Assembly: GCA_948099385.1 (NCBI GenBank)
Contig: CANUEZ040000183.1
Location: 992,001 to 1,056,000 of the forward strand
Direction of reading: 5' to 3'
Source: Fasciola hepatica
Lineage: Eukaryota > Platyhelminthes > Trematoda > Plagiorchiida > Fasciolidae
Length of the DNA: 64,000 nt
Positions 16,200-64,000 of this stretch are shown piece after piece. Numbering within the stretch: position 1 is the stretch's first letter; each line of letters starts with the position of its first letter. The position numbers and the translations under genes are program-made. The notes beneath the pieces were generated by a model, which was not told where the DNA came from, did not search any database, and was given only the letters and a program-made list of their open reading frames with translations.

Positions 16200-16574
16200 C
16201 CTACGACGCATTTGAGAAATACGTGGCCAAATTTGAAATGGATCCCGAAATCAGAACGTGATTATCCGTGAAGTTCTACGATACTCCATTATCAAATGAA
16301 CGACGACATAAAACAGATACAAACCTCAATTATGCGGTCACAAGGACTCAGAAAACGAGAGCCAAACTGCGGCGTGCGAGAAAGGAGCACGCGCGTCATG
16401 CAGGTCCACAATAAGTATATGACAGAATGGCGCATTGGACGCGAACAGCCAAACGTTGGTTCATGAAAACATACAGTGCATAGAAACAGGCCAATAGTGT
16501 AAGTGAGTGAGTGATGTCATAGAAGCATGAAATTTTGATGTTTCTGAGGAGACTTTCCACGACCGGTGGTTACA
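16200..16574 (-). repeat. BEL-1m 3' LTR
   Basis: About 375 bp; in element sense it begins TGTAACCACCGGTCG. Its central 240 bp are virtually identical to the 5' LTR at 21730-22102; differences concentrate at both ends. The last base is set by alignment to the TTACA end of other copies and is uncertain by a few bases. Confidence 0.85.
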
Positions 16575-17198
16575 CACCCCACTAAAATGCTCCCCAACCC
16601 TGACAGAGTCAAAGGTTTGGAAAAAGGCTTTTGATTCTTCATATCTATCTAGACCTTGCTCTCAAAGCGCGTATTTAATACTTCTACCGTCAACATCCTG
16701 CTCGCAATCGCACTCGATACGGTGGCTACACCGAAGCGATGTTAATCCGCATCGTCCGCGAGAGCGGCTGATTGACGGCAGGCGGGAAGGGGGGACATAG
16801 GCGCTTTTCTCGGGATAGCCGTCGTGCATTGGCTGCTTGTGCCTCTGTTAGTGCGCGTGCGCGCGGGTGCCATTGGTGCGGTCGCACTCTGGTATATCGG
16901 CAAATAGTAACAACCATCACTTACGGGTGATCTCTTCCATAATGTCGGTGATAAAGGAGGAACAATCGGCCCAGCGGCATGTTTTGGTGGGGGTCATGAA
17001 TTATAACCGTGTATTATGTGAGTGTATGACTGGTGTGTGTCTGGGTGTACGGTGGAATAACAACTACTACCACATTTGGGAAAAGATTTCTATGACACCA
17101 ACCGAAAAACGACGAACATTGCAGCGTGTTTGATGGAGGTCATGAAGTATAAACATGTACCATGTAAGTATGTATATATCAGGGTGCATGATGGTTAA
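16575..17198 (-). other. BEL-1m 3' UTR with tandem repeat and purine-pyrimidine tract
   Basis: Two units spaced 146 bp apart start around 16979 and 17126; both contain ggtcatgaa-ataaac-type cores (ggtcatgaa at 16992 and 17138). A GC/GT-rich alternating tract lies near 16850-16870. The same layout occurs in the 3' UTRs of BEL-1p (32467-32591 plus 36715-37215) and BEL-5 (59689-60386). No coding capacity is evident. Confidence 0.6.
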
Positions 17199-18349
17199 TT
17201 ACGCCAGTATTTTACGAATGCGCCCGCACATGAGAGGTTCTTTCAACCATTTCAAAGAAGAATGTAAAATAGTCTGCTGGGTTTCCGTGTTATCGGCTTC
17301 TTCGTCTTCACTCTCAAGGAGATTGATACTGCGTGCGTTGCGGATTAGCGTTCCGTTGGAGGTCTTCAACTTCATAATTCTTATCATTCCGTCAGAGCTT
17401 CCGATGGCTTCCATCACCACACCCAAAGGCCAGGTGCTGAAAGGCGCGTGTTCGTCTGTGATCATCACTGCATCCCCAAGCTCGAATGGTCTTGTTTTGA
17501 TCAGGCACTCCTCTCGGGCGGCTGTTGTTCAATGATCGACAGCAATGTTCGCCTGGTGGACCGGATCAGGCGTTCTCATGCGCCGCTGCGATGACTGGCC
17601 TGCGGGGGATTGACGTGGCTTTGTATACCATAGATCAAGTTTCGTTTCTGCAGTTTGCCTCTGTTCATGTTTTTGTGCCAACGCTGCAGCTCCCGGTGAG
17701 CGCCCGCGAAGTTCGATCCATTATCAGAGTATGTATCTGCCGGCACTCCTCTTTGGTTGATGAAGCGCTTCAAAGCCCGCAGGAAAAAGTCGGTTGTCAT
17801 CGAATGAACAACTAATAGGTGTACCGCGCGTGACTTCATGCACGTCTAATACACCCGTATCGTTTTTCCAACCTCTTCCCACACGATCTACTTCGTGTCA
17901 AAGCTCAGGCGGGAGTTGGTCAGCCTACCATTTACCCGTAGTAGTCCATTATTGAGTTTGGGGTTTAAGTGCTTCAAGTTGCCTCCCGGGGGTGATATTC
18001 CTTTGTCGATTGGTCCCACTTTTTCCGCCCTCTCGAGTTCTCGGGTGAAAGCTTCCCGTTGTATCATCTTGAATAAATCGTAATCTGCTGCTCGTAATTC
18101 ATCGGGGCTTATCGGACCCACTCGTATCCGGCCGGAGAGTCGGATCCCTTCCATGACAAACAAATGTCCTTTGAACCTGGCCAACCAAACTAATGCCCGA
18201 AGTGTCTTCATCCAGGAAGAAAACCTGACCAATCGTGACAAAATGAATGTCGCTTCAAGGACTGTGGCCGTCCTCACTAGGCCATTGATCTCCAGTTCTA
18301 ATTCCAGAGGAGGTTTTAGTTCGTACACGGTCCAGTCCTGTTCGGGCAT
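17199..18349 (-). pseudogene. BEL-1m integrase, with a 287-bp deletion
   Basis: Mirror image of the BEL-1p integrase (31024-32466). The N-terminal part (17888-18349), a catalytic-core piece with S-D-N-G-S-N-F-A-G (17576-17839) and the C-terminal piece (17199-17468) remain. Compared with BEL-1p the whole HHCC zinc-binding region and first core part are missing between 17880 and 17895, with a 3-bp gta microhomology at the break. A few substitutions separate the copies 3' of the deletion (for example R for C and L for P in the last piece). Confidence 0.85.
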
Positions 18350-18577
18350 CCGCAGGAATTTCGGCCCTCCCGTTCACGTGTCGAGTTGCCGGAGGTACGT
18401 AGCAAATCGGGAGCATAGGCCGGCTGGGTTATCGCCAGACTTGACATTTTCTCACTGATTCATGGCCGATTCGTCGTGGATGATCGTGAGTCGGTTAGCA
18501 ACGAAAGTACTAAAACGGCTCCCGACGTCGTTAATGGAGCACAGTACTATCGTCGAGCTCGTCCAAAAACTGGCCCA

Positions 18578-20569
18578 CTAAATGTAGAAGTCGAAACATC
18601 TCTTTAGAGCTTGTACCACCCTGACTGCTAACACGGCCGCGCTGAGTTCAAGGCGCGGGATCGAAACTGACTTCAGTGGGGCAACGTGGGTTTTGGCGAA
18701 CAGGATCCTCGCGGTATATTGTCCATCTCCCGTGCACCATCGTCCGTGTACCACGGCTCCATAACCGACTTCGGATGCGTCAGAAAAGGCATGTAGTTCT
18801 CCTGTCCGTGTTGTATGACCAGGGGGCAAACATCGTGGAATCCGTATGTCCCCTAGTTTCTTTGAGGTATTCAGAAATTCTTCCCAGCTCAACCGGTCTT
18901 CTTGGTCCAGTGGCTGGCCTCAATCGACTTCCATACGGCAGAGCCGCTGCAGCAGGATCTTTCGGGTAATAGCCAAGGAAAGGCGAAACCAAGCGGATCG
19001 AACAAACTAGAGGCAGCAGATAGCATGCCGCGACGGGTTACTGGCAGCTTGGGAACGCTTAGCTCGAAAACAAAGTCATCCGTTTCCGCGTTCTATTGTA
19101 TTCCTAGAATGCGTTCGGTGGAAAGTGGAGAACCGTCCAAATCTCCAACCCTTTCGGCCCTCCCGTTGTACGGAATTACTCTGAACAATCCCGAGGCGTC
19201 CGACATCCATTCCGTTAGATGAAAGCCACTCTCTTCTAGCAATCTTGTGAGGCACCTGAAGAGCGCTTGGCCGAGTCCGCACCATCGAATGACCCAAGAT
19301 AGCCGTCGACGTAGAAGGTCCTGCCAACGCTCTCTACTACCGACCGATGGACCAAATCTCCACGTTTGTTCGCTGACTCTCGAGGGGCGTAGTTTGCACA
19401 GAACGGTGATAATATGGCTCCGAAAGGGTGGACGATCATCCTATAATCCATCACTGCATTGTCCCGGTCGTTCTCTGCCCACCACAGGAAACGCAACGCA
19501 TCTCGCTGTTCAACCGGTATCTTCACCTGGAGGAACACACCCATGATGTTGGCGGACAATGCCACCCTACACACTGTGAAACGGCACGAAACTTCAATCA
19601 GTGGCGTGGTCCGGTCAGGCCCATGTAGTAGGCGATCGTGTAACGGCTTACCCTGGAACTTGGCTGCACAGTCGAGAACAACTCGCAGATTTTCGGGTTT
19701 CTCGGAGTAAAGAACCAGGTGGTGAGGTAGGTACCAGATCCCCTTCCGGCCGTCGGTGGTTGCAGCACTTTTCAACGGAGCCGAGGGTTTCGTTTTGCGT
19801 CATTACCTTCGCACATCGTTGCCACAGATCCTGGCCCCGAACGAAGTGTTCTTTTTATCACAGTGGTCTTTGCAGAACATAGATTCTGTTATCAACCCAA
19901 CGGTCAGCCGGTGTGCGTTATGGAAGGGAAACCTCAAACTGTTGTTTAAGGCCTCCAGTTCATTGCCGCACTGTTTGCAAAACGAAATGGTCCTCTTGAG
20001 ACAGCGATAGTCTTTCGTCTCCGATGTCGTGTAACTCCTTCTCATGTAGTCGCCGCAATTGATACTCCATGCGGTTTCTCTTCTACTGATACGCAATTTA
20101 TGGAACCACGTTCCCCTATTGGACCATACACCATCCGTCCTGGTGCTGTGCGTACGGCATAAGGTGCCTGGCGGCTGCCCGCTCTCTGGTTGAGTACCCA
20201 ATATGCCTCTGGCACGTCGCAGCCGATAAGGAGGTCCAACTCGTCTTCCTCTCAGTCTACAACGGTTACATCCTGCAGGTGGGGCCACATAGTTAAAATT
20301 GCATTCACCGACCTCGGTGCTTGCACGGGGAAATCAGCTAATGTGAGTGCCTTCGTTGATTTGATTCGCTCGCTAGTGTCTAACAAGATGAGCTGTGACC
20401 TCAACTGGTCTGCAGTCATTACTTGTGTTCCGCCTTCCGTGCTCACCGCTAACGGAGTCGTGCTTGTAGCGAGCCGGGGCTTATCGGCAAACCGCTCCCT
20501 CATCAGGGTAGTGTCCGATACACTTTCGACGGGAGCCAACGCTTTGGCCACCCCGGTCGGGGTCATCAC
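18578..20569 (-). pseudogene. BEL-1m protease, RT and RNase H, decayed
   Basis: Exact mirror of BEL-1p 28804-30795; every open frame on either strand has an identical partner with coordinates summing to 49,373. Stops and frame changes are in the same places in both copies. See the BEL-1p entries for domains and lost catalytic residues. Confidence 0.9.
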
Positions 20570-20602
20570 TCCTGCAGCAACTACCCCAGCCGTATTAGTT
20601 TG

Positions 20603-21697
20603 CTAGCAAACCGAGAAGTTGGCGTCGCAGGACCTGCAACTTGGATGAGCTATAGCCTCACGTGGAATGCCGTGTGAATTGGTCCAAGGCTTATATTTCA
20701 GATGTTTCCGTGCAGTGGTTTGATTCTGGCTGTTGCTAAGCACGTTAACCCGGTTACTATCGCGAATGAGTCGGCCAAACTTACTGTTGGCTATCTCGGC
20801 TTGCCTGCCCAAGTATTCGGCCAAGTCTTCGAAGTTAGCCTCGCGGTCGCTCCGACTTATACGTTCCGCCTCTTTCACCCGCTGAACCTGTTGTTCGGAA
20901 GAGAGGTGACGGGCTATGCACTCCAAGGTGTGCATCGCATCAAGGTCAGCCATGTAACCTAAATGGTCGAGGGCTATTGAACAGTTTTGCTTGATCAGTA
21001 AGTCGGCCATTGTGTAGACGCCGCCCTCGGTTCTTTTGGCCTCTAACATCACGCTCTCTGTTAGATTGCGTGTTACCTTGAGTGGCTGGCTGAAAAGATC
21101 CCTCAAAATCTTCCTTACCCGTGTGTGGCCCTGTTTTGGGTCAAGCACTGTGCACCCATCGACAACTTCTCTTGCTCGGCCTCGACAGTAATGAGTCAGA
21201 TAGAGAAGCCTTTGCCCGAGGTCGGTTATCTTGTTTTCGACGAAAGTTTCAAACTGCCTGATGAACTTGCGATATCGTTCAGATCGTCCGTCGAAAACTA
21301 TCAGTTCCACTTCTGGTAAATCAATCTTTGGTTGCGTCGATGTTTTATATTCGACGGCCGGCGCAGAGTTCCCTACTTTAATTTGTCCTGATCTGCCGGA
21401 TGGGTCGTATTCGTCGGTCGTTTGCTCACCCTCGTTCTGCCTACACTTCTCTCCTGCTTCCTGGGCCTGTTGCCTAGACAACAACAGTTGCTGTTCCAGG
21501 TCTAATATCCTCAGCTTGAATACATCGACATTCTTGCAATCCGCAGTACCCTCAGCATTGCATGAGCTGGCACCGAGAGGACTAGGTGACCTAACATTTA
21601 CTGTAGAATCAAAAGTATCCAATAAACCCCAGTGACTTGCCGTATTACTTCCTGTCCAGATTCCGATTGCTTCGCTCCTTTTCTTGGCATGTTGCAT
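20603..21697 (-). pseudogene. BEL-1m Gag (364 residues)
   Basis: Identical in translation to BEL-1p Gag at 27676-28770, including the premature end after the first zinc-knuckle cysteines. It starts 33 bp inside the 5' LTR boundary. The features are described under BEL-1p. Confidence 0.85.
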
Positions 21698-21729
21698 ATT
21701 TTCTCACTCCAAGTTGATCAGTTGAGTGT

Positions 21730-22102
21730 TGTAAGACGCCTTTGAGCAATACGTAGCCAAATTCGAAATGGATCCCGAAATCAGAACGCGATTATCCGTG
21801 AAGTTCTACGATACTCCATTATCAAATGAACGACGACATAAAACAGATACAAACCTCAATTATGCGGTCACAAGGACTCAGAAAACGAGAGCCAAACTGC
21901 GGCGTGCGAGAAAGGAGCACGCGCGTCATGCAGGTCCACAATAAGTATATGACAGAATGGCGCATTGGACGCGAACAGCCAAACGTCGGTTCATGTAAAC
22001 ATACAGTGCATAGAAACAGGCCAATAGTGTAAGTGAGTGAGTGATGTCAAGGAAGCATGAAATTGTTATGCTTCTGGAGGAGTTTTACCAGCCGTCGGTG
22101 CA
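21730..22102 (-). repeat. BEL-1m 5' LTR
   Basis: Plus-strand text begins TGTAAGACGCC at 21730, so in element sense it ends ...TTACA. Identical to the BEL-1p 5' LTR (27269-27643) up to about 22055; the last roughly 50 bp differ from it and from the 3' LTR. Confidence 0.85.
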
Positions 22103-22590
22103 ATCAAGAATCTACCAAGAGCTGTGTCAATGATATAAATCATCATAATGATACTTACATACTGGCTATATAGAATGCACATGGAGCTGGCGATACGTGC
22201 TTTGCATGGGATGTGACCTGGGTCATGCTTTCTTCAGCTTTTCGAAAATCTAGTTTGCCCCCGCAAGGTTCCACCAACGCGGTGCACGTGTGGGTTAATT
22301 CCATTACTTTGGAGACATCGAGAATTCCTGTGAGGCCAACTTTGATTCGGTCTAGTGTTTCAGTCAGGCCTGAGTTTTTTTCGAGGATTTCTTTTCAAAC
22401 TCAGGAACAGACAGTAATAAGGAAGTGTTCTGTTTCATTCTAAAGCGTGGAACCCTGGAAGTTGCGAAGGGGGTAGAGTGCATCTTGAGCGAAATATAAA
22501 TGAGTGTTGGAGGTATGCACTCTAGAATGTAGGAGGATGAATGGAAGATAAGGACAAGCTCCCCAAGTCTTAGCCACAGCGATTCAAGTT
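22103..22590. other. Unassigned stretch between BEL-1m and LINE-B2
   Basis: No domain recognised. In minus sense it lies 3' of the LINE-B2 RT, so it may be LINE-B2 C-terminus and 3' UTR. Confidence 0.35.
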
Positions 22591-25500
22591 CTAGTAGCTC
22601 GCAACTCGCCCTGTAATTCGGAGGAGATTATGGGCCGAGTAATTGATTGATGAAGGATCACTGGACTCTTCGATCGCGAGTCTATCAGATTTGCGAGTAC
22701 GAGCGTATACCAGAGGGCAGCACGCGAGCTGCGGTCTGGCATGTGACTTAATGATCAGAAGCTGGCTATTGCGCATTCTCAATGCTGTGCAGGTAAGGGC
22801 TATAGTTCTTCTGGTCTTAGCCGCCTGGTAGGCTTCCTGTCCTTGGAAGGTAAGGGTGCCTGAATACTGTAGGCCGAGATTTCCCATTGGCGGAATAATA
22901 GGAATGTATGATCCGTCTTAGGCGAGTGATTCAGGAGGAATTTGGCTTTAACACGTGAGAACGGCACTATTACCAGCAAAGAAACTCATTTTCCAAATAC
23001 TGCACCATATGTCAAGGGCGTTCGGGTGATCAGCTATTTTTGGGAGTGTAAAGGTCAAGGCATAGGGCTCATTAGGATAGACAATTTTGATACCGTCGGA
23101 GAATAAAAACGTACTGCCATGGCGTATTACTTTGAATAACTCCTCAGTGTAGAGAAGAGATATAGTTGGCCTAAAACTCTGCCCTGTATAACACCACTTG
23201 GGGTTGGCTGGGATGATTAAAGGTAGCTCTAACGGCCGCTCTCTGCGATCAGTTCAAAATCTCGCTATTTGATGTTTGGCAGATTTCCCATAGCGGCTTC
23301 TTAGTGCCACTCTTGATGAACGGAAGGCCACAAAGTCGAATTTTCTGTCGCTGTCCAGCGACCTATCTTCCAGTTCGTCGGCAATACCAGATGCTTCGTG
23401 CTGTCAAGACTTGCATTTTGAACCCTTACCCTTTTTCCCACTGCTCCATTATCCGGAGAACTAACTTTCAGCTCACTGGTGCAATTCTAATGGCAAGGTA
23501 GTCACAAGGTCCGGGAAAATGTTGGGCTTCGGCCTTGCACCTGTGTAGAAATTCAAGACCTCAAGACTACTGCTTGCAATCCCATGCTAAGACAAGAAGA
23601 CAACCAAGAAAAGAGTGGGCCTGTTACTCCGTAAAATTCGACCTTGGCTAGCAGCTGAGCGTGATGCACGTGATCAAATGCTTTTATCGTATAAATAAAG
23701 ATAACGATAGATGCTCAGCTAGAGTCGGCTGAATTTGTGATGGGAATAGGGCAATCTAGTTGGCAGGTCAGATGCAACCCAGACTTTATGAAGCTATGTT
23801 GGTTGTTATTTATTAGCCCGTGTGCGTGGATAAGATGGGCAATCTTATCTCCAACTATTCGTTCCATTGTCCCAGATATAAAGGAGAATGTGGTTAGTGG
23901 GTCGGTAGTTAACCTGATCATGTAAGGCCCCCTTTTTGTCGGGGGATGATGGCGGATGTTCTCCACTGGGATAACGGTATACTTTTTGACGTGGGGAGAT
24001 TGAATAAGCTTAGCAAAAGCGTCACAATGCCCTGGCCACCAAGACAGATCGGAGCTGGAGGGGTACTATTAAGGCCAAAGGCGGCCAGAGGTCGAGTGGT
24101 GTTTAGCAGGTTTCGGACCTCAATAGGACTGGATACCACGGCTGACAAGGTATCGGCGGTCAGGTAGATGAGATCCTTGGTTGGATTATCCCGGTCTGTG
24201 TTGGGGGTAGAATAGCAGAAATTATTGAAAGCCTCAGCGGTTAACGGCAACAAGCTAATGTGAATTTTCTCTGATAAGAGCATATATGGTGTTTTGTTCG
24301 GTTGCGAGTTTTACTAGGGCCAGAGTTATAGGCCATTTTATTCGCTCGGTTGAGGGCGCAAAGTTCTTGCCCTTTTAGCGGGTTTTGCTTTTCGCGTAGA
24401 AGCTGAAGTGAGAGGTGGCTGGGGCAGAGGAAGGTAGAGAGGTCGTTGGTCCCTTCAAAGGCTTGTGGCTGCTTTATAAGTTTACTTTGCCTTTTTTGCT
24501 GCCTATGTGTCTTTATCACAATGACTTTGACTATCTCGGAAAAAAATGTTGTTCATAGAGGTGAATAAGTTGTGGTACATCACATCCGGCACCAGCTGAT
24601 GACCGGACGTTAGGAAGAAGGCATCCCATGTCTGATCACGCAGGATAGCGGGTGAGAAGCGTCTATTCAAATTTTGGAAAGATTTCTGATTTAAAGGCTT
24701 CTGCGTTGGTTCAGTTGTACGAAAAATTCGCAGTTTATGACCTTGTGATCACAACCAGGAAAAAGGTTGAGGGCACTGGCTTTTACACCTCGGAGGCTCA
24801 AGTAAAGATAAGGCCATGAATATTGTTTCTGCTGTTTGGTAATGTTATGTTAATTCCACCCACCTGCTGGGAAACGAGATACGACTACGTAGTCTCGACG
24901 AAGATTTCAGGGTTGTTTAACAGATGCCATGGGGGTGGAAGTCCCCTGCTATGATTTTGGCAACTTGTGGGATTTCAGCTGTGCGACAGAAAGCACCGGC
25001 GACTGTATCTACGTCATCCGTGCTGCAAACCGGCGGACAGTAGATACAACCAACGACGAGCTGTACCTGAAGCAGTGGCATGGGGATTCAAACAGAGTCT
25101 TGGATCTCATCAAGGGCAGGAAGCTGGAGTGCGGTCCAAGGCTGTTGTTCCTATTAGAAACACATCCGCCAACTTGTCTCTCACATCTGTTAGTAACGAA
25201 TATATTATAACCTGGTGTGAAGGTGCGCTGGAGGGGAGTTTTCTCCGTAAGCCAAGTTCCAGTTATGAAGATCGCATCCAAGTGAGATTGTAGTGCCGAG
25301 TTGCAGACGGATGTAAGTTTGACCACAACAGAGGGGGCATTGAAAAGTGGTACTGCAAAACTATTATTATGATGGCCACGATATCTGTTGAATATATCGC
25401 CCCTAAGGTTGGCTGCCAGGTATGAAGAAATTGTAGCCACCGGTGGACTGTAGGATGGTGTGGGAAGAGATATGCTACGAGAGGACGCAGGATAGTCAGA

Positions 25501-25712
25501 GAAAACGGAAAAACCGGAAAATTTGTATGAGGTGGATTTGAGTCCGGAAGCTCATGACTATTTTCGAATAGGGAGTAGGACGCATGGCGTGGTTGGGTAG
25601 GCCAAAAGTAATCAACCGGAACCGCACTTCGATAAAGTGCAGGCATAACCATCTGAATAGTTTCGCCGAGACTTACTTTGTCGTCGGTGGATGAAGTGTT
25701 ATTATGTTTCAC
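22591..25712 (-). mobile_element. LINE-B2: decayed CR1/Jockey-group LINE
   Basis: Minus strand, in order: the end of ORF1 (25263-25712), the APE endonuclease start (25009-25440: D-A-I-F-I-T-G-T-W-L-T), RT N-terminal part (23918-24283: A-E-A-F-N-N-F, then S-T-P-P-A-P-I-C-L-G-G), further RT (23715-23966) and RT thumb (22591-22887: S-H-A-R-P-Q-L-A). It is broken into many frames and the RT active site is not visible. It fills most of the spacer between the BEL-1 inverted arms and resembles LINE-B1 (same A-E-A-F and L-G-G blocks near 180-330). Confidence 0.7.
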
Positions 25713-27268
25713 TCAACCTGGAGGCGAAAAACTGATTGAGACAGGACAGTAAGGCCCAGGTCCCCGAGGTGAGACGACTGGCTTAGCTGATAGCTCTAAC
25801 CAATTTATTTATGAGTTCGGTAAGGGTACTGGAAGAAAGACTGGGATGACCTGTTTTTGCGTCACGATGACACTGAACACCATCTAGCAGTCCGTCAGCA
25901 AGAGGCGTCATTTTCGCTGGCATCTTGATTCCAAGCTCGTTAGGAACTGTAACGGACTCCTAGTAGCCGTTAAGATACTCGTAAAACAGTCCAAAAACCA
26001 TAGGCTTCCAAAGGGGGGGGGTCATTCCGGCTATTTATAGAATAACCACAAATATAACACAGAAGCCGTACGGACCCTAACGATAACCGCTGTGAGAATC
26101 GAATTCGGGCAAACCTGTATTCGGTAGAAAAGTAAGGCAGGCACTAGTACATGCAGGCACAATAAAAAGCCAACAAGTCGGCAAGCTCGTGAGCTGAGGC
26201 TATAAGCAATCAAAAGAGCAAGACAACGGTACAATCGCGCTAAGCTGCACAAGGTTGCGCAAATTGTGACACAATCTGATTGGTCAGTGCTGTCCGGTCC
26301 GAAACACGGCAGACGTCAGCTATTTACGTGCATGTGGGTGCGTGTGAGATTGTCGGTCTAAGCACGCGCTCATTCAGGCCAAACACAACAGGGGACGAGA
26401 ATTTAAAAAACAAAGATCTGGCCGCTGTACCAGCTGTGGGTGAACATGGCATCGACGGTGAACAGAAAAGACTCGGTGTCAAAGCGCGGAGTTTTTCTAC
26501 GGATGCGAGTTTGCTCCTTCTTCGTGAGAATCATGTGGATGCAGTAGCATGCGGTAGCTAAGTGGAACCGGGTCCTAACACAATACTGGCCTATGCGCAG
26601 GCTGGCCAGGGGTGGTTTTCGTGGAACAGTATTTCGCGGGGCAAGGCTAGATTTTACGAAAAATGCGAGGAAAAGAGCAATGAGACCAACGCTTCAGAGC
26701 CCGATGTGAGAGTATCGGGTGAAGCTAAAGACAGCCTCAAACAGCTACTGTTGAGAGATTGATAGCATCTGCGTTGTCGAGTTTCGATTAACATCGGCCC
26801 AACGGCATTTCCGTGCCCACGGATCACACGCCCGTATAGTTGAAGATGCCGCGTAAGATCCGTCCGAAAAAGAGTCCAGGTTCCATCCTGGGCGCCACAC
26901 TGACCGATGGTCTCATTTCCCAGTGAGGGGTCAGCCCCTTTTACGTACACAGGACTCAGCAACGGTACCGACGAAGCCCATGTGGCCATATGGATCTTCC
27001 TGAGAGAGGGCAAAGCACACTAGCAGAAAACACTCGTTTGCGGGTGCAGTCAGATGATGGACCACAATAACAAGCACGAAGCCGACGTCCAGTGTAACTG
27101 TAGTCTACAGAAGATAAGAAAAAAGCGGAATTGAAATTCAAGACTGTAGTTCCTCCAGCCTGCAGACTGGTAAAACCATGGCTAGCTACAAAACCTAGTA
27201 CCAGCTATAAGGTGCAAAATTTGAAACGACCCAGGCGAAACGGACAGGATTTTGTAATCGGTGAACAT
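25713..27268. other. Unassigned stretch holding an unknown ORF
   Basis: No transposon domain recognised. A run of nine G occurs near 26015. The only coherent coding candidate is the plus-strand frame 26280-26762, listed separately. Confidence 0.4.
26280..26762 (+). other. Unknown open frame with one internal stop
   Basis: Two open stretches in the same frame (26280-26561 and 26562-26762) are divided by one TAG, giving about 160 codons. The second part is charged (K, E, D-rich, residues about 115-155). I do not recognise it. No splice or promoter evidence. It could be a decayed exon, an unknown repeat or chance. Confidence 0.2.
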
Positions 27269-27643
27269 TGCATCGACAGGTTGTGAGAAATCTCCTCAGA
27301 AACAACAAAATGTCATGCTTCCTTGACATCACTCACTCACTTACACTATTGGCCTGTTTCTATGCACTGTATGTTTACATGAACCGACGTTTGGCTGTTC
27401 GCGTCCAATGCGCCATTCTGTCATATACTTATTGTGGACCTGCATGACGCGCGTGCTCCTTTCTCGCACGCCGCAGTTTGGCTCTCGTTTTCTGAGTCCT
27501 TGTGACCGCATAATTGAGGTTTGTATCTGTTTTATGTCGTCGTTCATTTGATAATGGAGTATCGTAGAACTTCACGGATAATCGCGTTCTGATTTCGGGA
27601 TCCATTTCGAATTTGGCTACGTATTGCTCAAAGGCGTCTTACA
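27269..27643 (+). repeat. BEL-1p 5' LTR
   Basis: 375 bp, starting TGCATCGACAGG (expected TGTAACAACCGG) and ending CGTCTTACA. From about 27313 it is identical to the BEL-1m 5' LTR; its first 45 bp differ. It differs clearly from its own 3' LTR at 37216-37591. Confidence 0.85.
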
Positions 27644-27675
27644 ACACTCAACTGATCAACTTGGAGTGAGAAAAT

Positions 27676-28770
27676 ATGCAACATGCCAAGAAAAGGAGCG
27701 AAGCAATCGGAATCTGGACAGGAAGTAATACGGCAAGTCACTGGGGTTTATTGGATACTTTTGATTCTACAGTAAATGTTAGGTCACCTAGTCCTCTCGG
27801 TGCCAGCTCATGCAATGCTGAGGGTACTGCGGATTGCAAGAATGTCGATGTATTCAAGCTGAGGATATTAGACCTGGAACAGCAACTGTTGTTGTCTAGG
27901 CAACAGGCCCAGGAAGCAGGAGAGAAGTGTAGGCAGAACGAGGGTGAGCAAACGACCGACGAATACGACCCATCCGGCAGATCAGGACAAATTAAAGTAG
28001 GGAACTCTGCGCCGGCCGTCGAATATAAAACATCGACGCAACCAAAGATTGATTTACCAGAAGTGGAACTGATAGTTTTCGACGGACGATCTGAACGATA
28101 TCGCAAGTTCATCAGGCAGTTTGAAACTTTCGTCGAAAACAAGATAACCGACCTCGGGCAAAGGCTTCTCTATCTGACTCATTACTGTCGAGGCCGAGCA
28201 AGAGAAGTTGTCGATGGGTGCACAGTGCTTGACCCAAAACAGGGCCACACACGGGTAAGGAAGATTTTGAGGGATCTTTTCAGCCAGCCACTCAAGGTAA
28301 CACGCAATCTAACAGAGAGCGTGATGTTAGAGGCCAAAAGAACCGAGGGCGGCGTCTACACAATGGCCGACTTACTGATCAAGCAAAACTGTTCAATAGC
28401 CCTCGACCATTTAGGTTACATGGCTGACCTTGATGCGATGCACACCTTGGAGTGCATAGCCCGTCACCTCTCTTCCGAACAACAGGTTCAGCGGGTGAAA
28501 GAGGCGGAACGTATAAGTCGGAGCGACCGCGAGGCTAACTTCGAAGACTTGGCCGAATACTTGGGCAGGCAAGCCGAGATAGCCAACAGTAAGTTTGGCC
28601 GACTCATTCGCGATAGTAACCGGGTTAACGTGCTTAGCAACAGCCAGAATCAAACCACTGCACGGAAACATCTGAAATATAAGCCTTGGACCAATTCACA
28701 CGGCATTCCACGTGAGGCTATAGCTCATCCAAGTTGCAGGTCCTGCGACGCCAACTTCTCGGTTTGCTAG
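27676..28770 (+). pseudogene. BEL-1p Gag, 364 residues, C-terminally truncated
   Basis: The ATG at 27676 lies 33 bp after the LTR. Residues about 60-95 form a likely short coiled coil (L-R-I-L-D-L-E-Q-Q-L-L-L). Residues about 125-330 are the BEL capsid-like domain: V-E-L-I-V-F-D-G, then F-I-R-Q-F-E-T-F-V, then H-Y-C-R-G-R-A-R-E-V-V, then K-I-L-R-D-L-F. Gag assembles the cytoplasmic particle in which cDNA is made. The frame stops after C-R-S-C-D-A-N, so the zinc knuckles and the Gag-protease junction (over 100 residues in BEL-4) have been deleted; protease sequence follows within 35 bp. The identical break in BEL-1m shows it predates their homogenisation. Confidence 0.85.
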
Positions 28771-28803
28771 CAAACTAATACGGCTGGGGTAGTTGCTGCA
28801 GGA

Positions 28804-29570
28804 GTGATGACCCCGACCGGGGTGGCCAAAGCGTTGGCTCCCGTCGAAAGTGTATCGGACACTACCCTGATGAGGGAGCGGTTTGCCGATAAGCCCCGGC
28901 TCGCTACAAGCACGACTCCGTTAGCGGTGAGCACGGAAGGCGGAACACAAGTAATGACTGCAGACCAGTTGAGGTCACAGCTCATCTTGTTAGACACTAG
29001 CGAGCGAATCAAATCAACGAAGGCACTCACATTAGCTGATTTCCCCGTGCAAGCACCGAGGTCGGTGAATGCAATTTTAACTATGTGGCCCCACCTGCAG
29101 GATGTAACCGTTGTAGACTGAGAGGAAGACGAGTTGGACCTCCTTATCGGCTGCGACGTGCCAGAGGCATATTGGGTACTCAACCAGAGAGCGGGCAGCC
29201 GCCAGGCACCTTATGCCGTACGCACAGCACCAGGACGGATGGTGTATGGTCCAATAGGGGAACGTGGTTCCATAAATTGCGTATCAGTAGAAGAGAAACC
29301 GCATGGAGTATCAATTGCGGCGACTACATGAGAAGGAGTTACACGACATCGGAGACGAAAGACTATCGCTGTCTCAAGAGGACCATTTCGTTTTGCAAAC
29401 AGTGCGGCAATGAACTGGAGGCCTTAAACAACAGTTTGAGGTTTCCCTTCCATAACGCACACCGGCTGACCGTTGGGTTGATAACAGAATCTATGTTCTG
29501 CAAAGACCACTGTGATAAAAAGAACACTTCGTTCGGGGCCAGGATCTGTGGCAACGATGTGCGAAGGTAA
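28804..29570 (+). pseudogene. BEL-1p protease and RT N-terminal region, inactive
   Basis: 28804-29121 (105 residues) matches the start of the BEL-5 Pol (60387-63996): M-R-E-R-F-A-D-K-P, then L-A-V-S-T-E-G-G-T-Q-V-M-T-A. The protease active site reads V-E-S-V-S-D-T-T-L, whereas BEL-5 has V-D-S-G-S-D-T-T-L; the catalytic Asp and Gly are both replaced. After a TGA near 29119 the frame continues with D-L-L-I-G-C-D-V-P-E-A (29134-29331) and then shifts (29085-29570 carries the next piece). Enzymatically dead. Confidence 0.85.
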
Positions 29571-29597
29571 TGACGCAAAACGAAACCCTCGGCTCCG

Positions 29598-30480
29598 TTG
29601 AAAAGTGCTGCAACCACCGACGGCCGGAAGGGGATCTGGTACCTACCTCACCACCTGGTTCTTTACTCCGAGAAACCCGAAAATCTGCGAGTTGTTCTCG
29701 ACTGTGCAGCCAAGTTCCAGGGTAAGCCGTTACACGATCGCCTACTACATGGGCCTGACCGGACCACGCCACTGATTGAAGTTTCGTGCCGTTTCACAGT
29801 GTGTAGGGTGGCATTGTCCGCCAACATCATGGGTGTGTTCCTCCAGGTGAAGATACCGGTTGAACAGCGAGATGCGTTGCGTTTCCTGTGGTGGGCAGAG
29901 AACGACCGGGACAATGCAGTGATGGATTATAGGATGATCGTCCACCCTTTCGGAGCCATATTATCACCGTTCTGTGCAAACTACGCCCCTCGAGAGTCAG
30001 CGAACAAACGTGGAGATTTGGTCCATCGGTCGGTAGTAGAGAGCGTTGGCAGGACCTTCTACGTCGACGGCTATCTTGGGTCATTCGATGGTGCGGACTC
30101 GGCCAAGCGCTCTTCAGGTGCCTCACAAGATTGCTAGAAGAGAGTGGCTTTCATCTAACGGAATGGATGTCGGACGCCTCGGGATTGTTCAGAGTAATTC
30201 CGTACAACGGGAGGGCCGAAAGGGTTGGAGATTTGGACGGTTCTCCACTTTCCACCGAACGCATTCTAGGAATACAATAGAACGCGGAAACGGATGACTT
30301 TGTTTTCGAGCTAAGCGTTCCCAAGCTGCCAGTAACCCGTCGCGGCATGCTATCTGCTGCCTCTAGTTTGTTCGATCCGCTTGGTTTCGCCTTTCCTTGG
30401 CTATTACCCGAAAGATCCTGCTGCAGCGGCTCTGCCGTATGGAAGTCGATTGAGGCCAGCCACTGGACCAAGAAGACCGG
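29598..30480 (+). pseudogene. BEL-1p reverse transcriptase, catalytic residues lost
   Basis: 29598-30137 (179 residues) has the RT core: L-R-V-V-L-D-C-A-A-K, then D-R-T-T-P-L-I-E-V, then motif A as A-L-S-A-N-I (BEL-5: A-L-S-A-D-I), then H-P-F-G-A-I-L-S-P-F-C-A-N-Y-A (motif B region), then F-Y-V-D-G-Y-L (BEL-5: F-Y-V-D-D-Y-L). Two of the three catalytic aspartates are therefore gone. 30138-30480 continues through frameshifts with the thumb and connection. Confidence 0.88.
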
Positions 30481-31023
30481 TTGAGCTGGGAAGAATTTCT
30501 GAATACCTCAAAGAAACTAGGGGACATACGGATTCCACGATGTTTGCCCCCTGGTCATACAACACGGACAGGAGAACTACATGCCTTTTCTGACGCATCC
30601 GAAGTCGGTTATGGAGCCGTGGTACACGGACGATGGTGCACGGGAGATGGACAATATACCGCGAGGATCCTGTTCGCCAAAACCCACGTTGCCCCACTGA
30701 AGTCAGTTTCGATCCCGCGCCTTGAACTCAGCGCGGCCGTGTTAGCAGTCAGGGTGGTACAAGCTCTAAAGAGATGTTTCGACTTCTACATTTAGTGGGC
30801 CAGTTTTTGGACGAGCTCGACGATAGTACTGTGCTCCATTAACGACGTCGGGAGCCGTTTTAGTACTTTCGTTGCTAACCGACTCACGATCATCCACGAC
30901 GAATCGGCCATGAATCAGTGAGAAAATGTCAAGTCTGGCGATAACCCAGCCGGCCTATGCTCCCGATTTGCTACGTACCTCCGGCAACTCGACACGTGAA
31001 CGGGAGGGCCGAAATTCCTGCGG
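30481..31023 (+). pseudogene. BEL-1p RNase H, broken
   Basis: 30481-30795 (104 residues) contains H-A-F-S-D-A-S-E-V-G-Y-G-A-V (first catalytic Asp kept) and S-I-P-R-L-E-L-S-A-A-V (second acidic position kept), and stops where BEL-5 reads W-S-V-S-F-W-T-D-S-T. 30796-31023 holds the rest with stops. RNase H would degrade the RNA template during cDNA synthesis. Confidence 0.85.
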
Positions 31024-32466
31024 ATGCCCGAACAGGACTGGACCGTGTACGAACTAAAACCTCCTCTGGAATTAGAACTGGAGATCAATGGCCTAGTGAG
31101 GACGGCCACAGTCCTTGAAGCGACATTCATTTTGTCACGATTGGTCAGGTTTTCTTCCTGGATGAAGACACTTCGGGCATTAGTTTGGTTGGCCAGGTTC
31201 AAAGGACATTTGTTTGTCATGGAAGGGATCCGACTCTCCGGCCGGATACGAGTGGGTCCGATAAGCCCCGATGAATTACGAGCAGCAGATTACGATTTAT
31301 TCAAGATGATACAACGGGAAGCTTTCACCCGAGAACTCGAGAGGGCGGAAAAAGTGGGACCAATCGACAAAGGAATATCACCCCCGGGAGGCAACTTGAA
31401 GCACTTAAACCCCAAACTCAATAATGGACTACTACGGGTAAATGGTAGGCTGACCAACTCCCGCCTGAGCTTTGACACGAAGTACCCCATATTGGTACAG
31501 GCTCGACAAACTGTGATAGAACTAATGACCCAACACGTCCATGCCGTGGAGGAGCATGCCGGGGAAAGTCACGTGAAGAGCGTCATCCGAAAGCGCCCTT
31601 GGTTGCTTATAGGAATGGCGACTGTAAAACGCGTAATCCGACGTTGTGTACATTGTTGGAGACGCAACGCCGCAGCGAGCAAACGACACACGGCCCGCTA
31701 CCAGGATGCAGAGTGACGCCGGGCTGGTGGCCGTTCAGCGACACCGGGTTGGAAAACTTCGAACGCTTGTAGATCAAGTGTGGGAAGAGGTTGGAAAAAC
31801 GATACGGGTGTATTAGACGTGCATGAAGTCACGCGCGGTACACCTATTAGTTGTTCATTCGATGACAACCGACTTTTTCCTGCGGGCTTTGAAGCGCTTC
31901 ATCAACCAAAGAGGAGTGCCGGCAGATACATACTCTGATAATGGATCGAACTTCGCGGGCGCTCACCGGGAGCTGCAGCGTTGGCACAAAAACATGAACA
32001 GAGGCAAACTGCAGAAACGAAAATTGATCTATGGTATACAAAGCCACGTCAATCCCCCGCAGGCCAGTCATCGCAGCGGCGCATGAGAACGCCTGATCCG
32101 GTCCACCAGGCGAACATTGCTGTCGATCATTGAACAACAGCCGCCCGAGAGGAGTGCCTGATCAAAACAAGACCATTCGAGCTTGGGGATGCAGTGATGA
32201 TCACAGACGAACACGCGCCTTTCAGCACCTGGCCTTTGGGTGTGGTGATGGAAGCCATCGGAAGCTCTGACGGAATGATAAGAATTATGAAGTTGAAGAC
32301 CTCCAACGGAACGCTAATCTGCAACGCACGCAGTATCAATCTCCTTGAGAGTGAAGACGAAGAAGCCGATAACACGGAAACCCAGCAGACTATTCCACAT
32401 TCTTCTTTGAAATGGTTGAAGGAACCTCTCATGTGCGGGCGCATTCGTAAAATACTGGCGTATTGA
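31024..32466 (+). pseudogene. BEL-1p integrase, decayed
   Basis: 31024-31716 (230 residues) carries the N-terminal region, the HHCC zinc-binding site (H-V-H-A-V-E-E-H-A-G-E-S-H, then C-V-H-C) and is out of frame afterwards. 31823-32086 has the core piece with S-D-N-G-S-N-F-A-G (second catalytic Asp). 32194-32466 has the C-terminal piece ending L-L-E-S-E-D-E-E-A-D, also seen in BEL-5 at 60387-60581. Between 32100 and 32190 the part with the catalytic Glu and the following region is deleted compared with BEL-5. Confidence 0.85.
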
Positions 32467-32591
32467 ACCATCATGCACCCTGATATTTACATACTTACAT
32501 GGTACATGTTCATACTTCATGACCTCCATCAAACACGCTGCAATGTTCGTCGTTTTTCGTCGGTGTTACATAAGGCCTTTAGAATATGTAG

Positions 32592-32949
32592 TGTAAAGAA
32601 CAAATACTGAAAATCCTTCTGAATTTTCAACATGCTTTGCTAATTTGACTATGTTTAACATTACCTTGAAGAGCTTGCTCAAATACCACACTTTTCACGA
32701 TTGTTTATCCATGTGAGACATTTGAATTTGGCTTTTAACCGCTTCTGACTGTCGTGCTTGAGCCATGGGGTTTTGAGCCTTTGAGTTTTACTGTGAAGTC
32801 TATTTGGCCGCATACTTGAGGTTTGTACATATTTGTACCCTTTGTGAATGTCAATTTAGCACAGTAGGAACTATGAATCAATCTTGTTCTGATTTTGGGA
32901 TTCGTTTGAATTGGCTACGCGTTTCTCGATTTGCGAGAATTGACTCACA
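32592..32949 (+). repeat. BEL-2 5' LTR
   Basis: Starts TGTAAAGAAC and ends GACTCACA; 358 bp, the same length as the 3' LTR. Confidence 0.92.
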
Positions 32950-32959
32950 GTACTCAAGT

Positions 32960-34450
32960 GGATCCTGGACATGAAAACCCATCGGACGTGCCCAGACAAG
33001 GAACCAAGGAACTTTTGAGACAACAGGAATTAACTGGGCAAGTCTTTGGGGACGGTTTCGGCGTTACTGATTCCCTGGATAATGCTAGGTCCTCTAGCTC
33101 TGTCAGCGCCAGGTCATATATTTCTAACCGCCATGAGTTTCTTGATATTAGTACCTACAGAATGAGAGTGGTGGAATTAGAGAACGAGCTGCTGTTAGCC
33201 AGGAAGCAAGCATAGCCTCCTAAGCAAGGAACTGGTCTCAGAGAGCCAGAAAACATCCATATATTTCAAGATGTCAACGTCGAAACGGCACTGTGACCGA
33301 CGCACAAAAACCCTTGTGACCGCCGGAAACCACCGAGGTTTTGCATTCGACCTGCTGACAGTGGGGCTATCCCATTTCGACGGGCATCCCGAACAATACA
33401 ATATATTCATGAAAAAATTCGAAAATTTTGTTGGGAGCAAAGTTGCAGATCAAGGTCAAAGGTTTTCGTATTTATTACATTACCGTCGTGGGAGGGCCAA
33501 AAGTGCTATCGAAGGCTGCGCGGTGCTTGGTCCACCAGTGGGTTACATCAGGCCACGCAGAATCCTGAAAGATTTGTTTGGACAAACATTCAAGGTGGCT
33601 AGAAGCTTGATTGATGGTGTTTTATTGGAGGAAAACAGGACTGAGAGCAAGGCTGAATTACTGTCACATTTGGTGATAAAAATGCAGAATTGCAACATAT
33701 CACTGGAGCGCTTAGGATACCGGTCTGATTTGAATGCTTCGCACACACAGGAATGTATTGTTCGTTGTCTACTTATTGATTTACAGAGCCGATGGGCAAA
33801 AGGGAGCTGAAGAAATAAATACCCTTGGGCGGGAATCTACGTTCAACGATTTGACTAAGTTCATCGGTCGTCAATCTCTTATCACCAACAGCCGATTCGG
33901 ACAAATAGTACGCGAAAGTGGCAGGCTGGCACAAATGGAACTGACATCTGCTCAAATTGTAGGGAAGGACTGTAACCGAATTCGGCCTTTGGCTAACATG
34001 CACATGATAAGTCGAGAACCCGAGAGGTCAACTGAATGCAAGCTATGCAACTCCCTACATCGGTTACCAGATTGTCCGACCTTTCATTGGATGAGTGTGC
34101 CCAATCAGTGGTGCGCAGTAAAAAGGATTGGCTCATGCTTGATGTGTTTGAACAACTCTTATCGAGCCTCTGAATGCAGCTTAAGAATGAAATGTAACCA
34201 AGACGGATGCTTGGGTAATCATCACTCATTACTATATGGCCCTCTCAATGATAGGCCTATTCAGCCGAATGAGCCCAGAATTGTCTGTTCAACGGGGCAT
34301 GATGACTTCAAACCGGCGAGATTAGGCATCGTACCTGTCGACATCGTGAAAACTAAAGGATTTAGGATGGTCAATGCATTTCTGGACACGGGGTCGGATA
34401 CCTCGCTGATTACCCGCGAGCTTGTAGAAAACTGTGAACTAATCGGCTAG
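32960..34450 (+). pseudogene. BEL-2 Gag and protease start
   Basis: Three frames in series. About 32960-33215 is the Gag N-terminus (Y-R-M-R-V-V-E-L-E-N-E-L-L). 33271-33810 is the capsid-like part (H-F-D-G-H-P-E-Q-Y, H-Y-R-R-G-R-A-K-S-A). 33734-34450 continues with three Cys/His groups (C-K-L-C-N-S-L-H-R-L; C-L-M-C-L-N; C-N-Q-D-G-C-L-G-N-H-H) and the protease active site F-L-D-T-G-S-D-T-S-L-I, intact at the motif level. No ATG opens the first frame after the LTR. A stop at 34448 interrupts protease. Confidence 0.85.
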
Positions 34451-35127
34451 CCTACCTCGCTTACTATCAGCACGATTGCAGGGGCTCATGGTAACAACTC
34501 TAAGAGGCTGACCCTGCAGTTGACGTCTTTATCTGATGAGGGGACTGTAAAACTTCCGGAAGACTTTGCATTAGACAGCTTGCCAATAAGATCAATCGAC
34601 TCTATTAGATCGATCTCCAAGAGATGGTCTCATCTCAGAGAAATAGCGTTAAAAGTGTCTAGCCCCCACGTCGACATACTACTTGGATGCATTGTATCAA
34701 AGTCTCATTAGGTGCTTGAACGGAGCATGAAAAATCTAAAAGAACCATTCGCTACGCGAACGATACCTGGCCGGACACTTCTCGGACCCCTGACTAACGA
34801 ACCTCATCAATCGGCATCAATGAATTGCTTAACTGCTGCTGAAAGAAGTGCCTCTATAGAACACAATCAACTTTTCGACGTCGAATCCAGCGGTCCATCT
34901 CAAGAAAGCGAAGTTCACTCAAAAGAAGATCAGTCGTTGCTTTCGACGGTGAATTCAAAGACGGGACGCCACAATGGGCAAAACGAAGTTTCTATACCCA
35001 AGAGACCACCGTCAAGTCACCTATCAAGAAATGGAGAAATTGTCCGGAGGCGTTTGAAATATTTCAAAAAAGGACAATTTTGAGAAGCTCTGCTGAAATA
35101 TGAACACCAGCAGGTCACGCAGAGCAG
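34451..35127 (+). pseudogene. BEL-2 protease C-terminal part and RT N-terminus
   Basis: 34520-34711 and 34712-35083 are in series with one stop between them. They match the region between protease and RT in BEL-4 and BEL-5 (P-H-V-D-I-L-L-G-C; A-T-R-T-I-P-G-R-T-L-L-G-P). The last residues (S-R-N-G-E-I-V-R-R-R-L-K-Y) correspond to the RT N-terminal linker. The RT motifs that should follow are absent. Confidence 0.75.
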
Positions 35128-35128
35128 C

Positions 35129-35623
35129 TTGGAATTTGCCGACCTAGTCACAGTGTACGGTACCTGGGTGGAACTGCATGGCCGGCGGCGAAACAAAGTA
35201 TCCCTTGCCAAAACAAAGATAGCTGAGCTGGATTCAGTATCCCTAAACAAACTCAAAATGACTGCGCTGGTATCGGGTTTTAATAAGGCACTATTGCTAA
35301 AAGAGAACGGTACTACCATCGAACTCAGTCTTGCGTATTGGGCAGATCCTACAGTTGCCTTACGTTACAGGAAACGGGAAAAACAAAGAGCGTGTTCGAA
35401 ACATCCGAGAGCTAATCCACTCGTAGCAGGAAACGGCGAGGAAGATGTTCATGATTCGAGTTTGAAACCACATACAAAGGACAAAGCAGCTTGCAGATCA
35501 CCTCGCTCCGAGCTACCCAGCATTTTATTCCATTTCATGATCCACAACTATTCAAGTGGACCCATTTTTCCTGAACAGTGGCAAAATGTACTTAGTTCCA
35601 GTTTCTATCCGGCGTGCACATAG
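35129..35623 (+). pseudogene. BEL-2 RNase H fragment directly after the RT N-terminus
   Basis: The 164-residue frame fits BEL RNase H in order: V-T-V-Y-G-T-W (BEL-5: A-V-V-Y-G-R-W), L-A-K-T-K-I-A-E-L-D-S-V-S-L (BEL-5: F-A-K-A-R-V-D-P-L-K-S-V-S-I), and L-A-Y-W-A-D-P-T-V-A-L-R-Y (BEL-5: V-S-F-W-T-D-S-T-I-V-L-Y-Y). The last part may match the region just before integrase. About 1.2 kb of RT core is missing upstream. Confidence 0.65.
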
Positions 35624-36356
35624 GCGAAAAAGAAAAATTCACCAAGACTTCATTTGAACTGTTCAAGTGAGGTCTATTAGCTGTAAGCACATTGTGAAAC
35701 TATTCTTGCCCTTGAAGAAGAACATTTCATACAATATTGTGTCACATATTTTTTATACAGAAAAACTTGGAAGTACTCTGGTAGATGCCAGTATTCGGTC
35801 AATTTCCGTGTTCATGGGTATTTCTATACTGTCCGTCGCACACTTGTTTTCGAAACTTATTCATAGTCAGAAACCGGTTTCCATTTCTTTCGAAAAATTT
35901 AGCGCCTTAATTTTATGCAATTCTACTGGTTCGTGACCTTTCATTTTCACGCGATATCTCATTAGGCGTTGCACTTACGTTCAACTTGCGCTCTCATGCC
36001 TGTAAACAAAATAGGTCTGACCAATTGCTGCAATAGTTTACTGCTTGAGATAAGTATACTGAGCTTGCGCATCGAAATGTTTTACACTGCAAATCCCTCA
36101 TCTGCATCTTTCGTTTAATTGTGTGCTTCGGTCTCCTGATGAATATGCCAATCTGAAGTTGTGCAGCGGGATTTGGAATTAATTCCTTATGGATTGTGCA
36201 AACGATGACCACGGTGGAAACCTGTTTTATGCGCAGCTGGCACAGAAAGTTAGCAACCACAGGCACTGACAATAAGTTACAGGTAGGTGGGGTGAGAATC
36301 ACGACTCAATCCTCAACATTAGACAAACCTATTTCCGGAAGGATTTTGGCTGGCAG
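35624..36356. other. BEL-2 3' internal region, no integrase seen
   Basis: About 730 bp between RNase H and the 3' LTR, where an integrase of roughly 1.3 kb would be expected. No HHCC or DDE motif on either strand. Possibly all 3' UTR. Confidence 0.55.
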
Positions 36357-36714
36357 CGTAAAGAACAAATACTGAAAATCCTTCTGAATTTTCAACATGC
36401 TTTGCTAATTTGACTATGTTTAACATTACCTTGGAGAGCTTGCTCAAATACCACACTTTTCACGTTTGTTTATCCATGTGAGACATTTGAATTTGGCTTT
36501 TAACCGCTTCTGACTGTCGTGCTTGAGCCATGGGGTTTTGAGCCTTTGAGTTTTACTGTGAAGTCTATTTGGCCGCATACTTGAGGTTTGTACATATTTG
36601 TACCCTTTGTGAATGTCAATTTAGCGCAGTAGGAACTACGAATCAATCTTGTTCTGATTTTGGGATTCGTTTGAATTGGCTACGGGTTGCTCGATTTGCG
36701 AGAATTGACTTACA
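36357..36714 (+). repeat. BEL-2 3' LTR
   Basis: Begins CGTAAAGAAC (first T changed to C) and ends GACTTACA. Near-identical to the 5' LTR at 32592-32949. Confidence 0.92.
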
Positions 36715-37215
36715 TATAGTAATAGCTGTGGTTCTATAATATTCCCAGACATACCACAGTCACATTCACCTAATACACGTTTATACTTCATGGTCCCCAC
36801 CAAAACGTGCCGTGGGGCTGATTGTTCCTCCTTTATCACTGAAATTGTGGAAGATATAACCCTTAAATGATGGTTGTTAATATTTGCTCATATACCGGAG
36901 TGCGACCTTAGCCATAACATCCATACGCACACACAAACACCCACACGAACATACGAGGCCGAGGCACAACTGCTCTCCCGAGGACAGCTCGTACGCTCCT
37001 CCTTCAGGCCCACCATCGATCAGCCTTTTTCATGGACGACGCAGAGTAACCGTTTGTCGGTGTCGCCACCGGATCAGGCGCGATCGTGAGTAGAGCGTTG
37101 AAGACGATGTATTAGGTGCGCGCACTGACAGCGAGGTCTACATAGGCAGGAAGAATCAGTACCCTTATTCCAATGCTTTGACTATGCTAAGATTCGGGAG
37201 GGTTTCAGTGGGGTG
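36715..37215 (+). other. BEL-1p 3' UTR remainder
   Basis: Aligns with the reverse complement of 16575-17060 in BEL-1m but with many substitutions, unlike the identical coding part. It contains a CA-rich tract near 36925-36950 and a purine-rich stretch just before the 3' LTR (gggtttcagtggggtg, about 37199-37214) that is a good polypurine-tract candidate for plus-strand priming. Confidence 0.65.
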
Positions 37216-37591
37216 TGTAACAACCGGTAGTAAAATAATCCCCCCAAAACACTGCAACTCCATGTTTCCCTAGCATCACTCACTTATTTACACCATTGAC
37301 TTGTTTTATGCACCGTATGCTTTTACGAACCAAAGTTTGTTTGTTCGCGTCCAGTGCGCTATTCCGTCATATCCTTGTTCTGGGCCTGCGTGACGCACGA
37401 GCTTCTTCCTCGAAAGCCGCAATTCGGTTCTCGTTTTTTGAGTCCCTGTGAAAGCGTGACTGAGGTTTGTACCTGCTTCTTGTCGTTGTTCATTTGATAA
37501 TCTAGTATCGTAGAATTTAACGGTTAATCGCGTTCTGCTTTCGGGATCCTTTGCGAATTTGGCTACGCGTTGCTCAAACTGTTTTTCCACA
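37216..37591 (+). repeat. BEL-1p 3' LTR
   Basis: Starts TGTAACAACCGG and ends near TTTCCACA; 376 bp. Its core is almost identical, in inverted orientation, to the solo LTR at 45984-46355, and far more different from its own 5' LTR. Confidence 0.85.
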
Positions 37592-63996: not shown

Positions 63997-64000
63997 CGCC

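Follow-up and report, generated by a model that had tools for sequence, protein, structure and literature searches.

An inverted pair of BEL-type LTR elements in Fasciola hepatica with an identical core and diverged ends, most likely shaped by gene conversion

How can two neighbouring, decayed transposable elements of opposite orientation be identical over more than 4 kb and yet clearly diverged at both ends? This question is raised by a 64,000-nucleotide stretch of the Fasciola hepatica genome (hereafter the window; positions 992001-1056000 of contig C183, CANUEZ040000183.1, in a genome of 1.5 Gb in 656 contigs), which carries two BEL-type long terminal repeat (LTR) elements, arm A on the minus strand (16200-22102) and arm B on the plus strand (27269 to ~37585). 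The two arms, at two separate loci, share an identical tract with diverged homologous sequence on either side. We take the observation to be real and gene conversion to be its most likely cause, a known process whose reach here was not expected. More exactly, we favour, with a probability of roughly 0.8, ectopic gene conversion without net crossover between two independent, old and decayed inverted insertions lying about 5 kb apart. The parts of the locus, in window coordinates, are as follows.

16200-16574, minus strand: 3' LTR of arm A; boundaries set by eye, outer flank running on as repeat Z
16575-17103, minus strand: 3' untranslated region (UTR) of arm A, lying beyond the identical tract and 26.1% away from the 3' UTR of B
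17104-17885, minus strand: outer taper of the tract in A; 98.8% identical to B 31778-32558, differences crowding at the outer end
17892-22060, minus strand: identical core of arm A; 4169 bp, 0 differences from B (global alignment)
21730-22102, minus strand: 5' LTR of arm A; unlike that of B over the first ~42 bp (22061-22102)
22103-27268, no strand: spacer between the arms, 5166 bp, with the repeat Z flank of A at one end and the repeat V flank of B at the other
27269-27643, plus strand: 5' LTR of arm B; 27269-27312 unlike A, the remainder identical
27313-31481, plus strand: identical core of arm B; 4169 bp (global alignment, 250-bp profile)
31485-31768, plus strand: 284-bp stretch in B, also in a relative at 60670-63999, deleted in A
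31769-32558, plus strand: stretch over which the tract of B tapers off outwards; identity per 250-bp step falls from 100% to 96.8%
32590-36714, plus strand: LTR element nested in B, starting 32 bp past the identity break (self-BLAST, flank continuity)
36715-37215, plus strand: 3' UTR of arm B, outside the tract (self-BLAST, distance table)
37216-37585, plus strand: 3' LTR of arm B; end placed to within a few bases, outer flank continuing as repeat V for ~105 bp

Self-BLAST and global alignment both gave 0 mismatches and 0 indels between 27313-31481 (+) and 22060-17892 (-), 4169 bp in all, in agreement with the indel-free identical core that an initial annotation of this DNA had described. That annotation had also proposed an alignment of the arms with an identity profile; run as a global alignment in 250-bp steps, this yielded a core at 100% between diverged ends, with 96.0% in the first step, whose differences all lie within ~44 bp of its start, followed by 100%, 99.6%, 96.8% and the break. 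At the 5' end of the LTR, where the annotation had noted a difference over the first 45 bp or so, 10 mismatches and two small indels were found in 27269-27312. Past the core, 284 bp of B (31485-31768) have no counterpart in A and are followed by a 2-bp indel; since the relative at 60670-63999 aligns unbroken across these 284 bp, A has a deletion. The next ~790 bp contain a 1-bp indel and 10 mismatches, all but one within 32320-32561; these are the substitutions that the annotation had placed beyond 31.8 kb, and identity breaks at about 32558/17104. At the mismatch rate of these outer 790 bp, the probability of 0 mismatches in 4169 bp is 9e-24, so that a chance origin of the core identity is excluded. 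The tract fills the uninterrupted homology of A and B, starting ~44 bp inward of the 5' edge and stopping 32 bp short of the nested insertion in B. Its left border is abrupt (27312/27313) and its right border fades over ~240 bp, as is expected if the ends of a homologous block are converted more rarely.

Arm B does not end at 32570, as first annotated, but runs on to ~37585, interrupted by the nested LTR element at 32590-36714. The two flanks of that element are contiguous homologues of the 3' UTR of A, and because they continue into each other B is a single element. The LTRs of one element are identical at insertion. In their interiors, the 5' and 3' LTRs of B differ by 19.1% and those of A by 4.2%, and the two 5' LTRs differ by 0.0%; the 3' LTR of B is 19-20% from the LTRs of A and 2.5% from an LTR at 45987-46355 (-). 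Copies at unrelated loci are 11.7-22.5% apart in the LTR interior, and the 26.1% between the 3' UTRs of A and B falls inside the range of unlinked copies (16.3-28.5%). The earlier description of both the 3' UTR and the 3' LTR as diverged thus held for the UTRs and for the 3' LTR of B, but the 3' LTR of A is only 4.2% from the core. With the LTR as query, three of the best 40 of 6536 first-look candidates were at least 97% identical, all of them at this locus, and the next stood at 87%. Discordant LTRs in B (19.1%) against concordant ones in A (4.2%), together with identical 5' LTRs, show that exchange took place after insertion. As shared sequence the interior is thus far younger than either insertion, which is gene conversion in effect. 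Since the LTR pair of A agrees and that of B does not, A is favoured as the donor, and by LTR concordance only it was probably the last one.

That the arms occupy two separate insertion sites was established from other copies of the surrounding repeats. The flanks of A (to 16199 and from ~22103) adjoin each other in 7/7 repeat Z loci (L010-L016, of 39 other matches), within a few bases in 5/7 and within ~16 to 80 bases in L011 and L012. Likewise, the flanks of B (to 27268 and from ~37583) adjoin in 6/6 repeat V loci (L045-L050, picked from 39 other matches for reaching the insertion point), where the matches to the right flank are short, at 63-114 bp, and two of them are weak (E 0.002 and 0.006). 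When the outer flank of B served as query, the repeat of the other copies started 105 bp beyond the LTR, and the site was decided by the inner flank. Both tests lead to the conclusion that each arm is one insertion in its own site, and adjacency of the flanks in two different repeats rules out a duplicated block carrying the flanks of A. Flanks are not swapped between the arms, and identity does not continue into the DNA flanking A or B. Given discordant LTRs in B, two sites and an identical core, conversion after insertion explains the locus and duplication does not; the initial proposal of gene conversion between two separate inverted insertions is accordingly supported by the empty sites (Z 7/7, V 6/6) and by the LTR discordance. 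An inversion crossover between A and B, hinted at by agreement of 4/5 target bases between the inner side of A and the outer side of B, is ruled out by the same empty-site tests. At 22061-22107, the 5' edge of A and its target bases are unusually altered relative to the 3' LTR of A and to the empty sites.

Both elements are dead, the longest sense-strand open frame being 366 aa in A and in B. In an alignment of seven LTRs, ends of the form TG...TTACA over ~375 bp were seen in the 5' LTRs of A and B, and the end of the 3' LTR of A is altered. Pfam support for the BEL/Pao name is weak in B, where DUF1759 (E 0.018) and zf-H2C2 (3.1e-5) each fall short of the cut-off. The relative at 60784-61785 makes a better case, with Integrase_H2C2 (1.7e-9) above the cut-off and rve (1.1e-5) below it; otherwise we take the label from the earlier naming and from the usual anatomy of such elements. 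The frame at 29574-30134 matched no Pfam family at E <= 1, and Rfam and tRNA scans gave no matches. Of 2333 candidates for the gag frame, none reached E <= 0.001.

Is this pair alone in the genome? We defined a pair as neighbours less than 100 kb apart, and the figures come from the best-40 list of each query. Using interior query 31485-32566 (best 40 of 4974 candidates), 22 places formed 11 inverted pairs, including A/B, and 0 direct pairs. Query 27670-28770 (best 40 of 5514) gave 8 inverted pairs, including A/B and one on C174 that was already counted, and 1 direct pair, the sole one listed (C138 at 4.02-4.03 Mb, 996 and 992 bits). Among the matches listed, the two interior queries together gave 16 inverted pairs besides A/B and 1 direct pair (binomial p 0.0003), and other repeats of the same assembly gave 5 inverted and 15 direct pairs. 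The LTR as query (best 40 of 6536) gave 3 inverted and 2 direct pairs, which speaks against an orientation bias. Bit scores of the two partners were equal in 7/7 pairs for query 27670-28770 and in 5/10 for query 31485-32566, the other 5 being off by 4-5 bits. In 350-bp core pieces from five of the ten pairs (C168, C174, C210, C92 and C24; arms 17-38 kb apart), partners differed at 0, 0, 1, 0 and 0 positions, that is, 1 difference in 1750 bp, and comparisons between different pairs gave 14.3-19.4% (40 comparisons). Flank probes of 501 bp, placed at a single offset ~1 kb past the expected ends, found no similarity between arms in 5/5 outward and 5/5 inward comparisons; the C210 probe fell in another BEL piece, and one match joined the probes of two loci. 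Scores of the 3' part were unequal in 4/10 pairs (C92, C24, C23 and C110), hinting at diverged ends there, and equal or near-equal in the other 6. For the five sampled pairs, either conversion or co-insertion may account for the likeness.

Tentatively, and with somewhat less than even confidence, we suggest that an old LTR family survives largely in the form of inverted neighbours, every pair being a separate unit in which conversion goes on over 3 to 88 kb at an identity like that of palindromes, direct neighbours having been lost by crossover, and that the result would be dispersed small palindromes with LTR clocks reset. An old burst would have placed many copies. Neighbours in direct orientation would have been merged or deleted by crossover, and inverted neighbours, not being removable, would have been kept alike by repeated non-crossover repair on the chromosomal copy next to them, each inverted pair diverging as a unit from all other pairs. 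For A and B themselves, our favoured and more probable reading is that the uninterrupted homology, which starts just within the 5' LTR and stops shortly ahead of the nested element, was made identical after both were in place, and that the ends of homology, being reached less often, kept their old differences. If conversion has recurred since both copies were young, as we infer, recombination across a 20% difference would never have been needed.

Similar contrasts were seen within single elements. Between the two LTRs of one element, 29/250 edge columns and 21/1622 interior columns differ (5 of 6 pairs); without A (leaving C29, C175, C76 and C3) the counts are 12/200 and 10/1295, i.e. ~6% versus ~0.8%. 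The C26 pair, for which the script found no boundary and which was therefore left out of the edge count, has 9 differences in the first 40, 1 in 314 and 5 in the last 20 columns; the C146 and nested-element pairs also stand outside the count. The contrast fits conversion inside LTR pairs, or fast mutation at the edges, and by their sequence the LTR ages of the C26, C29, C175, C76 and C3 elements look reset. Frames in these five elements (L024-L033) are broken, and in C26 edges and interior differ more.

Several observations weigh against our interpretation or limit it. The exact identity could be partly a consensus effect, the assembly sequence being the only material examined. The 5' edges of the four LTRs follow neither element nor locus: over the first ~45 bp, that of B matches the edge of the 3' LTR of A at 37/46 and its own 3' edge at 28/46, and the best match of the 5' edge of A reaches only 33/48, a pattern that calls for either repeated exchange or rapid change of LTR edges. 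Outer differences between A and B are of mixed polarity as to the donor. Target-site copies, compared by eye, are poorly kept in A (2/5 bases), with 3/5 in B, 5/5 in the copy on C76 and TGTAG/TATAG at the nested element. Some shorter pairs repeat the A/B profile of a clean interior with differences at the ends. These are inverted pairs on C138 (1069 bp difference-free, 5 differences within the first 27 bp and 9 within the last 46) and on C67 (530 bp difference-free, 5 differences within the first 21 bp), and in the window the inverted LTR pair 37216/46355 (7/8 differences no more than 30 bp from an end) and the inverted repeat 39988-40515/57047-57574 (528 bp, 12 mismatches, 8 of them equally close to an end). 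They support conversion less strongly than A/B does, because end differences are partly expected wherever diverged homology continues beyond a local alignment. Palindromes on C159 (L019-L020, arms of at least 9.2 kb) and C146 (L021-L023, at least 11.3 kb), whose arms are ~99.95% identical and contain flanking DNA, are better read as inverted duplications.

Among other explanations, the one that survives best, though unlikely, is an assembly or polishing artefact in which the interior of B was filled or overwritten with sequence of A. Exact identity over 4169 bp is suspicious in this respect, and the initial annotation had named an assembly effect as the main alternative. From general knowledge of read mapping, however, a true difference of ~20% would not be merged, only small differences being erasable, and similar pairs recur, interior queries in the best-40 lists meeting nearly always inverted neighbours and other repeats mostly direct ones; a local, inverted and family-specific pattern is not expected from consensus errors. 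Self-BLAST detected no inverted similarity between the two ends of the 5166-bp spacer, which, unlike a hairpin-read artefact, has no self-complementary match. The alternative is weakened by the recurring pairs and the unmergeable divergence, although the exactness of the identity may still owe something to consensus. Slightly less probable is conversion from cDNA of the element instead of the neighbouring arm, a route described for yeast LTR retrotransposons (as cited in PMC4558846). A cDNA source would not favour inverted neighbours; of the best 40 LTR matches scored, the nearest unlinked one is ~13% away, and the longest open frames measure only 175-392 aa in the nine copies counted. We regard as very improbable an inverted segmental duplication, or a replication template switch, that copied part of A. 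Such palindromes are present in the genome (C159, C146), but B is an entire insertion, having an LTR edge, 3' UTR and 3' LTR of its own and flanks that adjoin in repeat V, and a copied fragment would not land in register inside a BEL element unless guided by homology, which is conversion. Least probable of all is a joint insertion of two sister cDNAs facing opposite ways. It would produce inverted neighbours that are identical but have unlike flanks, a picture that the five sampled pairs also show, but the 3' UTRs (26%) and 3' LTRs (19%) of A and B should then match too, which is contradicted.

The nested element has a DUF1759 match (E 8.5e-4) below the Pfam cut-off, and members of its family occur as head-to-tail neighbours spaced 3.74-3.99 kb, a length of LTR plus interior (C40:6125031-6133764, C59:1545650-1550650, C144:846682-851679 and C120:14613837-14619084), a spacing such as crossover between LTRs would leave. 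A second inverted repeat, 40541-42441 and 43026-44927, has 1.9-kb arms with 3 mismatches and a 584-bp spacer and encodes a reverse transcriptase (RVT_1, E 9.4e-7, just under the cut-off); the later part of its frame reads as GIY-YIG-like, which we take to be as in Penelope-like elements. Inverted dimers of Penelope-like elements are known.

If gene conversion between inverted neighbours is confirmed, unlinked copies of a dead family would drift 14-19% apart while inverted pairs stay near-identical, and such pairs could serve to gauge how fast and how far ectopic repair works in an ordinary genome, and how it behaves at edges, where neither sex chromosomes nor selection on genes is involved. 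The usual clock, LTR divergence, would then date the last conversion and not the insertion, and element edges and target-site copies would be better clocks. The 16:1 orientation bias in the best-40 lists turns the proposal into a testable claim, that direct neighbours are deleted and inverted ones kept.

Arm-to-arm gene conversion reportedly also acts in mammalian X palindromes, and the arms of sex-chromosome palindromes are duplicated blocks; A and B differ from these in being two unrelated insertions that share only the element. Sex-chromosome palindromes resemble A/B in that inverted copies are near-identical by conversion over kilobase-long tracts, and in human palindrome P6 arm-to-arm tracts average 2068 bp with a maximum over 9 kb, inversions being rare (PMC3723533). 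Inverted repeats in Caenorhabditis (PMC1803023) are likewise alike within a genome and diverge between genomes, but these are described as paralogous gene pairs compared across species, not as transposon insertions. In searches of open-licence papers we recognised no precedent for inverted transposon pairs kept alike by conversion, and inverted whole-element pairs with independent flanks do not appear in the available sections of PMC3723533, PMC1803023, PMC7251063, PMC8230782 or PMC4558846. Among flatworms, GENECONV signals in taeniid TRIM elements, with four cases in Taenia solium, are a likeness in LTR-element conversion; the cases are few, the elements small and non-autonomous, and the word "inverted" is absent from the main text (PMC4558846). 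Conversion between the LTRs of plant elements (PMC7251063) and between Alu copies, which acts within about 10 kb (PMC8230782), also affects neighbouring transposon copies and disturbs LTR dating. Those cases concern the LTRs of one element or short SINEs, whereas in A and B conversion would involve the whole interiors of elements that are inverted neighbours, and one family shows an orientation bias.

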